A stretch of DNA of 64,000 bases from Pseudoflavonifractor sp. 524-17 (GTDB lineage Bacteria; Bacillota; Clostridia; Oscillospirales; Oscillospiraceae), in NCBI RefSeq assembly GCF_009935845.1, contig NZ_QWEK01000019.1:21493-85492 (forward strand). The letters are read 5' to 3'. Shown here in pieces: positions 19,605 to 63,890 of this stretch. The position numbers and the translations under genes are program-made. The notes beneath the pieces are model-generated. The model saw only the letters and a program-made list of their open reading frames with translations, was not told the origin of the DNA and made no database searches. Position 1 is the stretch's first letter; every line of letters begins with the position of its first letter.

Positions 19605-20078
19605 ATGCTTTCTGAGAGCAATGCAGCCCGTTCCCAAACTGCCGGGCGCTGCACTGACAGCTCTGGCACACTGCCGGACTGTGCCCCACTGGCCGTCCCC
19701 TATGTCCCTTTTCAACAGCCAGGTTCAAAACGCTATTCCCAGCAGGAGGCCCTGAATAATGGCACCCTCTTCCCCGGGCTGAACCTTCCCTTCCATTTAA
19801 AGGAAAATGCTGTCAATGCCGTTAACGGCCCCCTCGGCGAGCTCCAAGCCCTGGAATTCGTCCTGACGGAACTTGGCGAGTATCTGGACACCCACCAGAG
19901 CGATTCGGATGCCTTCGCCCTCTATCAGCAATATGCCGCGCTGGAGCGGGAGGGCCGGGAGAAATACGAGAGTATGAACGGCCCGCTGATGCAGGGTTCC
20001 ACCGCATTCGCCCAGTCCTGGTCCGCCTGGCTGTCCGATCCCTGGCCCTGGAACTACAACGAAGGGAGCGCCCGCTGA
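19605..20078 (+). CDS. CotJA-CotJB fusion, spore coat
   Basis: A 157-residue protein that joins two spore-coat proteins normally made separately. Residues about 25-70 match CotJA (YVPFQQ, YSQQEALNNGTLFPGL). Residues about 75-150 match CotJB (LQALEFVLTELGEYLDTH, YESMNGPLM, DPWPWNY). The join is in frame with no sign of a stop or internal start. In Bacillus cotJA, cotJB and cotJC form one mother-cell operon. AAGGAGGAG precedes the ATG. The stop overlaps the cotJC ATG as TGATG, so translation is coupled. The fusion could be native to this lineage or reflect loss of one stop codon. Confidence 0.85.
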   Translation: MLSESNAARSQTAGRCTDSSGTLPDCAPLAVPYVPFQQPGSKRYSQQEALNNGTLFPGLNLPFHLKENAVNAVNGPLGELQALEFVLTELGEYLDTHQSDSDAFALYQQYAALEREGREKYESMNGPLMQGSTAFAQSWSAWLSDPWPWNYNEGSAR

Positions 20079-20484
20079 TGTTTGTCTACGAGAAAAAGTT
20101 GCAGTATCCCGTTAAAATCAAAAATACCAACCCTCAACTCGCATCTTTCATTATCAGTCAGTACGGCGGGCCAGACGGGGAGCTTGGCGCTGCCCTGCGC
20201 TATCTCAGCCAGCGGTACGCCATGCCCTACCCAGAGTTAAAGGGTTTGCTTACAGACATTGGCGTCGAGGAATTGGGGCATCTAGAAATGATTGGGGCGA
20301 TTGTCCATCAGCTCACCCGCAACCTCTCCCCCGATGACACCCGTATGGGTAACTTTGCCCCCTATTTCACCGACCACGGCGCCAGTGTTTACGCCGCCGC
20401 TGCCGCCGGCTCCCCCTGGACCGCCGCCTACATCGGCGTAAAGGGAGATATTATCTGTGACCTGACAGAAGATTTGGCGGCGGA
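20078..20484 (+). pseudogene. cotJC: cotJC exon 1 (Mn-catalase-type spore coat protein, split gene)
   Basis: Encodes residues 1-135 of CotJC plus two bases of codon 136. CotJC is a manganese-catalase-like protein of the inner spore coat. This part carries Mn-ligand candidates E35 (GELGAAL) and the E65-x-x-H68 pair in EELGHLE. Homology stops at DLAA; in the unexcised state translation runs into element A and ends at 20545 after about 20 foreign residues. The remaining parts are at 30,627-30,749 and 63,807-63,890, same strand and order. Rejoined, they give exactly 200 residues, the family length. It is either a pseudogene or a gene restored by excision. Confidence 0.9.
20483..20484 (+). other. 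attL core of element A (GA)
   Basis: Left crossover candidate. Upstream is TTGGCGGCG (CotJC L-A-A), downstream is element sequence starting TGGGACG. Paired with GA at 30,627-30,628. Two bases alone are weak evidence; the reading-frame restoration supports it. Confidence 0.65.
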
Positions 20485-20544
20485 TGGGACGATAGCGCAA
20501 GCGCAACAAGACCGGAAAGCCTTGAAAACATTGGATTGTTGGTA

Positions 20545-20615
20545 GGACGAGCCTTTTCCGACGGCGATGGTGTAAGGACAACCTGTTAAAATTTTCGATG
20601 GGACAAGCTGTTTCC
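20545..20615 (+). repeat. Three iterated GGACAAGCTGTTTCC-type repeats at the left end of element A
   Basis: Related 15-mers lie at 20,545 (GGACGAGCCTTTTCC), 20,576 (GGACAACCTGTT) and 20,601 (GGACAAGCTGTTTCC). The best copy recurs at 23,757 and, as an inverted pair, at 28,745-28,792 just before the recombinase gene. They look like binding sites for an element-encoded protein. Confidence 0.6.
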
Positions 20616-20644
20616 AATCCAGTTTTTAGGAGAACTGATTTGCA

Positions 20645-20731
20645 ATGAAAATCGAATCGGACTATGTGAAAGTGGACGATTACTACCTCCCCGACCTGAC
20701 GATAGAACCGCCGCCGCCTGAAAAAAGTCTT
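20645..20731 (+). pseudogene. TnpV-like 5' remnant
   Basis: The first about 29 codons (DYVKVDDYYLPDLTI...) resemble the start of transposon protein TnpV. The similarity then breaks off and a sigma-A promoter begins at 20,730. AGGAGA precedes the ATG. The frame stays open to 20,965, but the downstream part shows no TnpV features, so I treat it as a fragment. Confidence 0.45.
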
Positions 20732-20757
20732 GACAATGGGAATATAACCTGTATAAT
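20730..20757 (+). promoter_or_regulatory. Sigma-A promoter for MATE operon
   Basis: TTGACA (20,730-20,735), 16-nt spacer, TATAAT (20,752-20,757) preceded by TG. A strong promoter, with a leader of about 180 nt before the MATE start. Confidence 0.8.
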
Positions 20758-20763
20758 AAGGGT

Positions 20764-20945
20764 GCTTGCTCGGAGGGCCAGTCATTCAATAGGAAATGAT
20801 GGGCTGGATAAGGCACAGGCTGAAATGTCTGCGACTTATCCAGCCCTTTTGCTTTTCGTGCAACGAAACTACAACCAAAGATCAGAAAGGTATTGTGTTT
20901 ATCCAGCAAAATATCTGAACGCAATTATTTGGAGGAGGATGCGAT
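20764..20945 (+). promoter_or_regulatory. Attenuator leader of MATE transporter
   Basis: GGGCTGGATAAG (20,801-20,812) pairs perfectly with CTTATCCAGCCC (20,835-20,846), followed by TTTTGCTTTT: an intrinsic terminator inside the leader. A second copy of TTATCCAGC at 20,899-20,907 can pair with the same upstream arm and would prevent the terminator. A short frame begins at ATGATG (20,797) and runs through this region. The design suggests conditional read-through, perhaps by ribosome stalling on a drug; no known riboswitch was recognised. Confidence 0.6.
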
Positions 20946-62521: not shown

Positions 62522-63292
62522 ATGACCAATGAAAAAGTATTCCAAATGGATTTTGGGAAAGTCTACGAACTTCTTTTGAATAAGGCAACCAAGAAGGGGC
62601 GTACACAAACGGAGGTTGATGAAGTTATCTGCTGGCTGACAGGATACAATACAGAAAGTTTGGAAAAGGCCCTTACATCCTCGGTCTGCTACGGAGACTT
62701 TTTCCGCAACGCACCCGCCCCCAATCCCAATCGGACGCTGATAAAGGGTGTGGTCTGCGGCATACGGGTGGAGGAAATCGAAGACCCTCTTATGCGAGAA
62801 ATCCGGTACTTGGATAAGCTCATCGACGAGCTTGCCAAGGGCAAGCCTATGGAAAAGATTCTGCGGAAACAGGAGGAACCAGCCATGTGGGTATGCCCCA
62901 AATGCGGCCGGTCATTTCGCAGAAAAGAGCAGGATCATTATTGTGGGAAAGCGCCGGATACGATCGAGGAATACATCCTCAGTCAGCCGGAAGATGTACA
63001 GCCTTATCTGTGCCAGGTCAATGACGCCATTAAAGGCAACATCCCGGAGGCCAAGGAAAAGATCTCCTGGAGTATGCCCACCTATTGGAAAGGCCGTAAC
63101 CTGATCCAGTTCGCGGCCTTCAAACGGCACATCGGCCTTTACCCTGGCCCGGAGGCTGTGGAAGCGTTCGCCGACAGATTGACGGACTATAAGACCAGCA
63201 AAGGAGCCATTCAGATCCCCTACAGCAAGCCGTTACCGCTAGAATTGATTGGAGAGATTGCAGCGTGGTGTGAGAAGAACAGCCAGAAATAG
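62522..63292 (+). CDS. DUF2200-DUF1801 fusion protein
   Basis: A 256-residue protein. The first about 120 residues (KVFQMDFGKVYELLLNKATKKGRTQTEVDEVICWLTGYN, split over 5-43) resemble DUF2200; a linker with CPKCGRSF...HYC may bind zinc; residues about 145-255 (ISWSMPTYWKGRNLIQFAAFKRHIGLYPG, split) are DUF1801/YdhG-like. Neither domain has a firm function. The pairing in one chain is uncommon. Confidence 0.75.
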   Translation: MTNEKVFQMDFGKVYELLLNKATKKGRTQTEVDEVICWLTGYNTESLEKALTSSVCYGDFFRNAPAPNPNRTLIKGVVCGIRVEEIEDPLMREIRYLDKLIDELAKGKPMEKILRKQEEPAMWVCPKCGRSFRRKEQDHYCGKAPDTIEEYILSQPEDVQPYLCQVNDAIKGNIPEAKEKISWSMPTYWKGRNLIQFAAFKRHIGLYPGPEAVEAFADRLTDYKTSKGAIQIPYSKPLPLELIGEIAAWCEKNSQK

Positions 63293-63339
63293 GGGGCTTG
63301 TCCACCCTATTTTTCCTCACGCCGAAAAAACTCTGGAAG
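63293..63339 (+). repeat. Imperfect repeat, copy 1
   Basis: About 45 bp starting GGGGGCTTGTCCACCCTATTT; related to 63,714-63,760 (AGGGCTTGTCTACCCATTTT...). Copies flank the DUF6718-like gene. Origin unknown; could be the end of a lost element or a duplicated 3' region. Confidence 0.5.
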
Positions 63340-63424
63340 AACGCTATATCAAGAATATTCTGCTGGAATCATCCGTACAGAACAAAATTTTTTAGCTCGG
63401 CTGCGTGAATTGGAGGCGATTTGA

Positions 63425-63670
63425 ATGAATGATAAAAAGATTTACATTGTGGCGAAAGTTTTCGATAAGCCCGGCAGCTTGGCATATCTCTGTAAGACAC
63501 CCAATGAAGCCAGATGCCTGCCAGGGACACTGGAGGCTCTGCGGGCTGAAGGGGTCCAGATCGTTATTTTGGACTCGCCGGAAATCTATTCGGAGTATGC
63601 GCCATATTCTTATGTGGAAAACATGAAAGCATTTATTAACAAAGTCTGCCAATTAAATCGAATTGCCTGA
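63425..63670 (+). CDS. DUF6718-like small protein
   Basis: An 81-residue protein (IYIVAKVFDKPGSLAYL, GVQIVILDSPEIYSEYAPYSYVENMKAFIN) resembling DUF6718-type proteins of gut Clostridia. Function unknown. It is the last gene before attR of element B. Confidence 0.65.
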   Translation: MNDKKIYIVAKVFDKPGSLAYLCKTPNEARCLPGTLEALRAEGVQIVILDSPEIYSEYAPYSYVENMKAFINKVCQLNRIA

Positions 63671-63713
63671 TAGGGTCCAACCCTATTACCCGAGTCCTTT
63701 ACCAGAGGAAAAC

Positions 63714-63760
63714 AGGGCTTGTCTACCCATTTTCCCACACATCGAAAAAGCCCCGGAACC
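63714..63760 (+). repeat. Imperfect repeat, copy 2
   Basis: Related to 63,293-63,339; see that entry. It lies about 45 bp before the right att core of element B. Confidence 0.5.
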
Positions 63761-63802
63761 CTTGCAAACACTGGGCTCCGAGGCCCTTACTTAAATTGAT
63801 AA

Positions 63803-63814
63803 CTTCGGCGAAGC
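63803..63814 (+). repeat. attR core of element B
   Basis: CTTCGGCGAAGC, matching 30,737-30,748 except for one base. The host cotJC sequence continues to its right. Confidence 0.8.
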
Positions 63815-63890
63815 GATTCGTCTGGCAAAGGAAAAAATGGATCAAAAAAATGTCTATCTTACCAATCCGATTCTAGATCAAAGGAAGTAA
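63807..63890 (+). pseudogene. cotJC: cotJC exon 3
   Basis: Encodes the shared G-E-A and then the last 24 residues (IRLAKEKMDQKNVYLTNPIL...) and the stop TAA at 63,888-63,890. It follows exon 2 in frame when the GGCGAAGC copies are merged. It has no start codon of its own. Confidence 0.88.

Follow-up and report, generated by a model that had tools for sequence, protein, structure and literature searches.

How, if at all, does a spore former come by an intact CotJC when its cotJC gene lies in three pieces? The question arises in a 64,000-nucleotide stretch of the Pseudoflavonifractor sp. 524-17 genome (contig NZ_QWEK01000019.1, positions 21,493 to 85,492; hereafter the window), where the pieces of the gene lie in order on the plus strand and are separated by two interrupting elements, here called C and D (Table 1). 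A single open reading frame (ORF) just upstream holds both the CotJA and the CotJB domain, and because the cotJC pieces follow it, the locus is a cotJABC operon. SpoIVA of the same genome lies about 2 kb upstream of the window.

An earlier, sequence-only reading of the window had proposed that the three same-strand fragments rejoin into one CotJC of 200 residues. This was borne out: joined, the pieces give 603 nucleotides, or 200 codons and a stop, in an unbroken frame with a stop only at its end. The short shared cores at the joins are GA (20,483-84 / 30,627-28) and GGCGAAGC (30,741-48 / 63,807-14). The fragment coordinates given earlier were right but for one, since the second piece ends at 30,748 and not 30,749; the shared GGCGAAGC ends at 30,748 and element D starts with base 30,749. 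Each interrupting stretch also proved to carry its own large serine recombinase, as had been stated, with one recognized by Pfam among the ORFs scanned in each. The suggested search for a second, intact cotJC was run with the Mn_catalase profile on the 149 contigs of the genome (G000; 3.72 Mb, 96% complete), and the two larger pieces were the only matches. Both insertions interrupt the coding sequence of a sporulation gene, carry a recombinase and are bounded by a core that restores the frame, three of the features of a sporulation gene-intervening element; frame-restoring cores were seen in relatives as well.

We consider it somewhat probable that cotJC is cut at two recurrent docking points and that the elements' own serine recombinases excise both elements precisely in the sporulating mother cell, which would likely rebuild the gene. 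The forespore would keep the elements while the mother cell excises them. cotJC may be a good landing place, being common in spore formers and offering conserved codons as a possible attachment site (attB). Its transcription is probably confined to the mother cell at a late stage, so that an insertion would be expected to cost growing cells little. The anatomy, the in-frame restorability, the recurrence in many families, the grouping of recombinases by site and purifying selection support this reading, and precedents in sigK, spsM, gerE, kamA and yabG, as described in the sections drawn on here of PMC5595907, PMC4191935, PMC10747680 and PMC6957869, count in its favor.

The same breaks recur widely. 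We denote the three profile-detectable break points in cotJC as sites A, B and C, and a fourth, near the gene end, as site D; the window is broken at C and D. Forty-nine of 60 related genomes (the window's own included) have a Mn_catalase match. With its own genome left out, complementary cotJC pieces were found in 12 of 48 relatives, whereas SpoIVA was split in 0 of 52 of the same relatives (Fisher p = 7e-5, for genomes that are not independent); one SpoIVA match among the 52 is cut by a contig end and is not internally split. Across the order, 333 of 394 genomes have a match, and 95 of these, spanning 14 families, hold complementary pieces broken at A, B or C (G000 in, G151 dropped). The 120 order genomes with weak best matches were searched again for all cotJC pieces; none of the matches listed for them starts at profile column 1 or 2 and continues beyond column 161, and therefore no copy other than the split gene was seen there. 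In total, paired breaks number 118 in 103 genomes, G000 and G151 included (33 at A, 49 at B and 36 at C), and site C is broken in 35 genomes besides the window's own. Outside the order, the same rule recovers the same breakpoints in 19 of the 87 class genomes with a match (20 before G481 was dropped), several of which have a full-length copy alongside the pieces. The counts leave out G151 (a paralogue with frameshifts), G481 (a frameshift and overlapping pieces) and 32 genomes in which no piece could be paired, and they are lower bounds, as genomes with an intact copy were checked for a further split copy in the relatives and class sets only.

Two elements in one gene had been singled out as the exceptional part of this locus, a view that the wider set does not support. 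At least two breaks at A, B and C alone occur in 14 of the 103 paired-break genomes, and in G246 the gene is split at all four sites into five pieces on one contig, spread over some 83 kb, and every break point has a recombinase (its B join core is 2 bp; its D core is not resolved). Site D, too close to the gene end for the profile search, was followed by reading final pieces: 10 of 50 leave the coding frame at RFGE/A (two rows lack that stretch), and a tail beyond the element rejoins in frame in the window and five other genomes. Where both pieces share a contig, 54 of 59 pairs lie in order on one strand. The recurrence goes beyond chance, with C broken elsewhere and the ends at D shared with G209, and anatomy and recurrence together firmly mark cotJC as a recurrent docking gene. 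Two unusual copies were also seen: in G446 (rows L246, L247) a full-length cotJC-like gene lies between the pieces of another broken copy, and a second Mn-catalase paralogue of the MFKHEK type (L314, L317) appears frameshifted in G151, and in G051 it runs into the end of a contig.

Every one of 36 whole elements (the smallest is 2.3 kb) holds a single recombinase. For 17 large elements the ends were fetched, and in each case one recombinase lies close to an end; the element of G014 gave two recombinase matches, and the recombinase of G090 was found by tblastn. Fifty-seven of 59 recombinases are full length with the catalytic Ser motif. On the 59-row tree the site labels need four changes, the minimum possible, against a mean of 27.6 when shuffled. 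Site A forms one clade (17 rows), as does site C (15, including the window's protein and L192, whose site is unlabelled), and site B forms two groups of 23 and 3, the latter at a point about 9 bp downstream. By sequence, the recombinases group by insertion point. The labels stayed clustered when further homologues were added, in a tree where label N is too wide because rows L202, L223, L226, L229 and L241 adjoin cotJC pieces. Site-C homologues of at least 47% identity have a cotJC piece in the flank (9 of 12 matches, the window's own included), and three at 40-45% have none. Sixteen of 19 clade-B matches of at least 45% lie on the element of a listed piece, G095 and G170 (twice) being unchecked and matches below 45% not checked singly; 7 of 11 clade-A homologues adjoin a listed piece, and 4 are unresolved. 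Members of the D-type family are not confined to cotJC, for several have no cotJC in the fetched flanks, among them that of G004, a host whose cotJC is intact.

Fetched element ends gave 58 joins from other genomes (A 18, B 26, C 14), whose in-frame outcome is partly built in, as the joining script kept the gene spacing. A frame-free check was also made: in 34 of the 58 pairs the longest shared word is at least 7 bp, and in 30 of these 34 that word is the exact in-frame join, the other 24 pairs sharing words too short to decide. Under a codon model omega was 0.054 for 50 split genes and 0.059 for 52 intact ones, and split cotJC is under purifying selection like intact copies.

Several observations weigh against developmental excision. 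That a restorable gene is restored during development, by excision, is a step that we infer from the sequence. Boxes of the sigma-E/K type are not clearly enriched before recombinases (10 of 57, versus 48 of 382 other ORFs), and a promoter profile built from the relatives' cotJ operons gave 25 matches in 79 loci versus 29.7 after shuffling. The site-C recombinase instead has a sigma-A-like, housekeeping-type promoter within a 15-bp inverted repeat. Two of the 59 recombinases are truncated (G009, G026), and five of the 59 same-contig pairs are inverted (G001, G208, G383) or out of order (G136, G402). Changes in conserved columns are slightly more frequent in split genes, at 3.0% (123/4133) versus 2.0% (87/4316), and in another set at 6.1% (278/4590) versus 4.0% (85/2152). 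Recent splitting may also account for intact frames, and since a break at D costs no more than some 22 residues of the C terminus, the cell may tolerate it even if the gene is never restored. The earlier likening to sigK skin and SPbeta in spsM stands for the anatomy, the restorable gene and the elements' own recombinases, whereas the promoter evidence lends developmental control no support.

Part of the conserved-column gap comes from columns defined on intact genes or close relatives, and f25 (15/249 versus 5/249) is the one family in which it is not small. At otherwise-invariant columns, E136D in five split genes and E65A in one, all from multi-break genomes, are read as unspliced letters retained by the script. 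The inverted and misordered pieces (L149, L150, L151, L152, L187-L191) could reflect inversion between elements or assembly error.

In a rival reading the elements dock passively, cotJC being a conserved, low-cost landing site from which they excise only for transfer or induction. Carriers would then form spores without CotJC, and the frames would be intact because elements insert precisely and turn over fast. We hold this to be possible, if rather doubtful. Sporulation-type control was looked for before the recombinases and none was found, and the housekeeping-type promoter fits such docking. So do the site-D element ends common to different families and the sister species G060 and G153, whose same-site recombinases differ by 0.7 changes per site while cotJC dN is 0.013, which points to turnover. 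Set against it, more than one-quarter of genomes are split and omega is not raised, and elements of 2.3-5 kb retain their recombinase. An argument from vertical inheritance, that the genes have long been split, was dropped, the sister-species recombinases being too diverged.

Were excision developmental, a directionality factor would be a likelier point of control than the recombinase. The best candidate is a short ORF upstream of the site-C recombinases, seen by eye in 12 of 15 cases examined; the window's version, of 44 codons, matched no Pfam or NCBIfam family. An ORF at 30,381-30,575, 3' of the site-C recombinase, is disfavored for this role because, besides the window's own DNA, it was found in one close relative only. 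Sigma-A-like boxes similar to the window's also precede several relatives of the site-C recombinase. As for the cotJ operon itself, 57 of 58 relatives have a CATA box, commonly GCATAGGATG, in the 180 bases that precede cotJA. Two other promoter signals were set aside: a loose CATA pattern before 46 of 59 recombinases (Markov-null mean 27), a similar pattern being about as common before other ORFs of the same loci, and a cotJ-type profile match at 28,573 in the window, at chance level.

It is very improbable that the gene is dead, its pieces decaying remnants and their restorability incidental. A few relatives do look decayed (G391, and G151 in a paralogue), and there are the two truncated recombinases. 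Drift in the relatives' pieces had been named beforehand as the refuting test; the low omega of the split copies already contradicts a dead gene, and the 30 of 34 informative junctions that are exactly in frame also count against it. Least probable of all, to the point of being negligible, is a misassembly that joined the pieces to foreign DNA: the draft has 149 contigs and five relatives have inverted or misplaced pieces, but the same breakpoints occur in the single-contig genomes G190, G254, G454 and G541, with shared cores and recombinases matched to site.

A broader form of the mother-cell excision reading seems to us evenly poised. According to it, cotJC would be a class-wide developmental landing pad for at least four, likely five, serine-recombinase lineages at the conserved points A, B1, B2, C and D, and more than one-quarter of species would make CotJC only after one to four simultaneous mother-cell excisions.

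Table 1. Features of the split cotJ locus and of its two elements (window positions).
Feature	Position	Strand	Basis
CATAGGATA, candidate -10 box for a cotJ operon promoter of mother-cell type	19536..19544	+	read in window; function putative
Fused CotJA + CotJB ORF, overlaps cotJC start	19605..20078	+	Pfam PF11007, PF12652
cotJC piece 1 (to site C)	20078..20484	+	Mn_catalase profile columns 1-151
Element C, 10.1 kb, mobilizable-type	20485..30626		GA cores as bounds; relaxase + recombinase
MatE-family transporter	20946..22289	+	Pfam
MobA/MobL relaxase	25163..26500	+	Pfam
RepA_N protein	26978..27703	+	Pfam
IstB-like ATPase	27679..28557	+	Pfam
44-codon ORF, candidate directionality factor	28607..28741	+	similar short ORFs before site-C recombinases
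GTGACA-17-TATACT promoter-like boxes inside 15-bp inverted repeat	28743..28792	+	read in sequence
Large serine recombinase, element C, 519 aa, DUF4368	28809..30368	+	Pfam; falls in site-C clade
cotJC piece 2 (between sites C and D)	30627..30748	+	Mn_catalase profile columns 147-191
Element D, 33 kb, defence island	30749..63806		GGCGAAGC as bounds
Fic protein	30818..31648	-	Pfam
Large serine recombinase, element D, 512 aa	31697..33235	-	Pfam; G209 has a homologue of 96% identity at its site D
IS21 helper + transposase	38742..41104	-	NCBIfam; helper under curated cut-off
Phosphorothioate-type defence cluster: DndB-like, PbeC, PbeA, SspA/DndA, SspC, SspB, BrxP/SspD-like	42202..57555	-	Pfam, PADLOC, NCBIfam
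Sigma-70 protein within defence cluster	44045..45193	-	Pfam / NCBIfam
cotJC piece 3 (final codons + stop)	63807..63890	+	rejoined frame

With its relaxase and serine recombinase, element C looks like a mobilizable element; conjugation genes were not systematically searched for. No phage structural gene was found among the scanned ORFs of elements C and D, and the part of the ORFs of element D that was scanned held no relaxase or type IV secretion genes. The end regions of element D are 88-96% identical in DNA to those of the element at the same point in G209, from a different family, with little beyond the ends matched at the cut-off used; the two are read as what may be one docking unit with exchanged cargo. 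Its defence cluster is assigned to the Ssp/Pbe type on the joint presence of SspA, SspB, SspC, PbeA and PbeC (PADLOC), and its SspD/DndC-like protein scores highest as BrxP. The top NCBIfam model for the sigma-70 protein in the cluster is MzaA, of an anti-phage system, below the cut-off of that model.

Viral contigs were examined as well. A scan of IMG/VR gave 22 loci with cotJC pieces, and on one 44-kb contig the two halves of a site-A break lie towards its two ends. Twelve such viral records were searched for a portal protein, and one has it; a site-C-like recombinase is present there as well, with no cotJC piece in the part fetched. The exact circular junctions of elements C and D had no match in the viral contigs. 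Some carriers, though not evidently the majority, may be phages.

With cotJC hit at several points by separate recombinase lineages across Clostridia, the adaptation of mobile elements to the development of their host can be studied in many genomes at once. Two further questions are how a single cell would coordinate multiple excisions and whether defence systems pass safely through sporulation as cargo of such elements, and the set is a source of many recombinases with known attachment sites.

No recognizable report of an interrupted cotJC was found in the literature searched, which mostly excludes subscription papers. The published interruptions of sporulation genes that we encountered, in the parts of the sources cited here, are single cases in single genes. 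Closest in convergence is the work of Durrant et al. (2022), in which distant recombinases likewise share target genes, namely a Mg-chelatase/protease gene and a prolyl isomerase (PMC10083194); cotJC is not named in its section on gene targets. The same source calls DUF4368 rare in site-specific integrases; the site-C recombinase has this domain, and its close clade keeps to one cotJC site. Excision of the skin element in sigK was experimentally shown in B. subtilis and C. difficile (PMC5595907, PMC4191935). Like elements C and D, skin encodes a serine recombinase of its own and interrupts a gene of the mother cell, with a core that stays in frame; it differs in gene, in being a single element and in its demonstrated excision, which for cotJC is predicted. 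SPbeta in spsM (PMC4191935) and phi3T in kamA (PMC6957869) also lie in genes that are reconstituted in sporulation by precise excision, as cotJC would be, but these are active phages with excision shown, whereas the scanned ORFs of C and D include no phage structural gene. The gin element in gerE of B. cereus (PMC5595907) is, like C and D, a non-phage element with serine recombinases in a sporulation gene, but there a single element at a single point encodes three recombinases, whereas cotJC has one per element and up to four elements per gene. The yin element in yabG of C. botulinum (PMC10747680) shares with the cotJC elements its occurrence in Clostridia and in a sporulation gene; it is prophage-like and described as unique to one strain, whereas the cotJC breaks recur across families. 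The split cotJC, a gene that the literature searched does not report as interrupted, belongs with these known skin, SPbeta/spsM, gin and yin-type interruptions.

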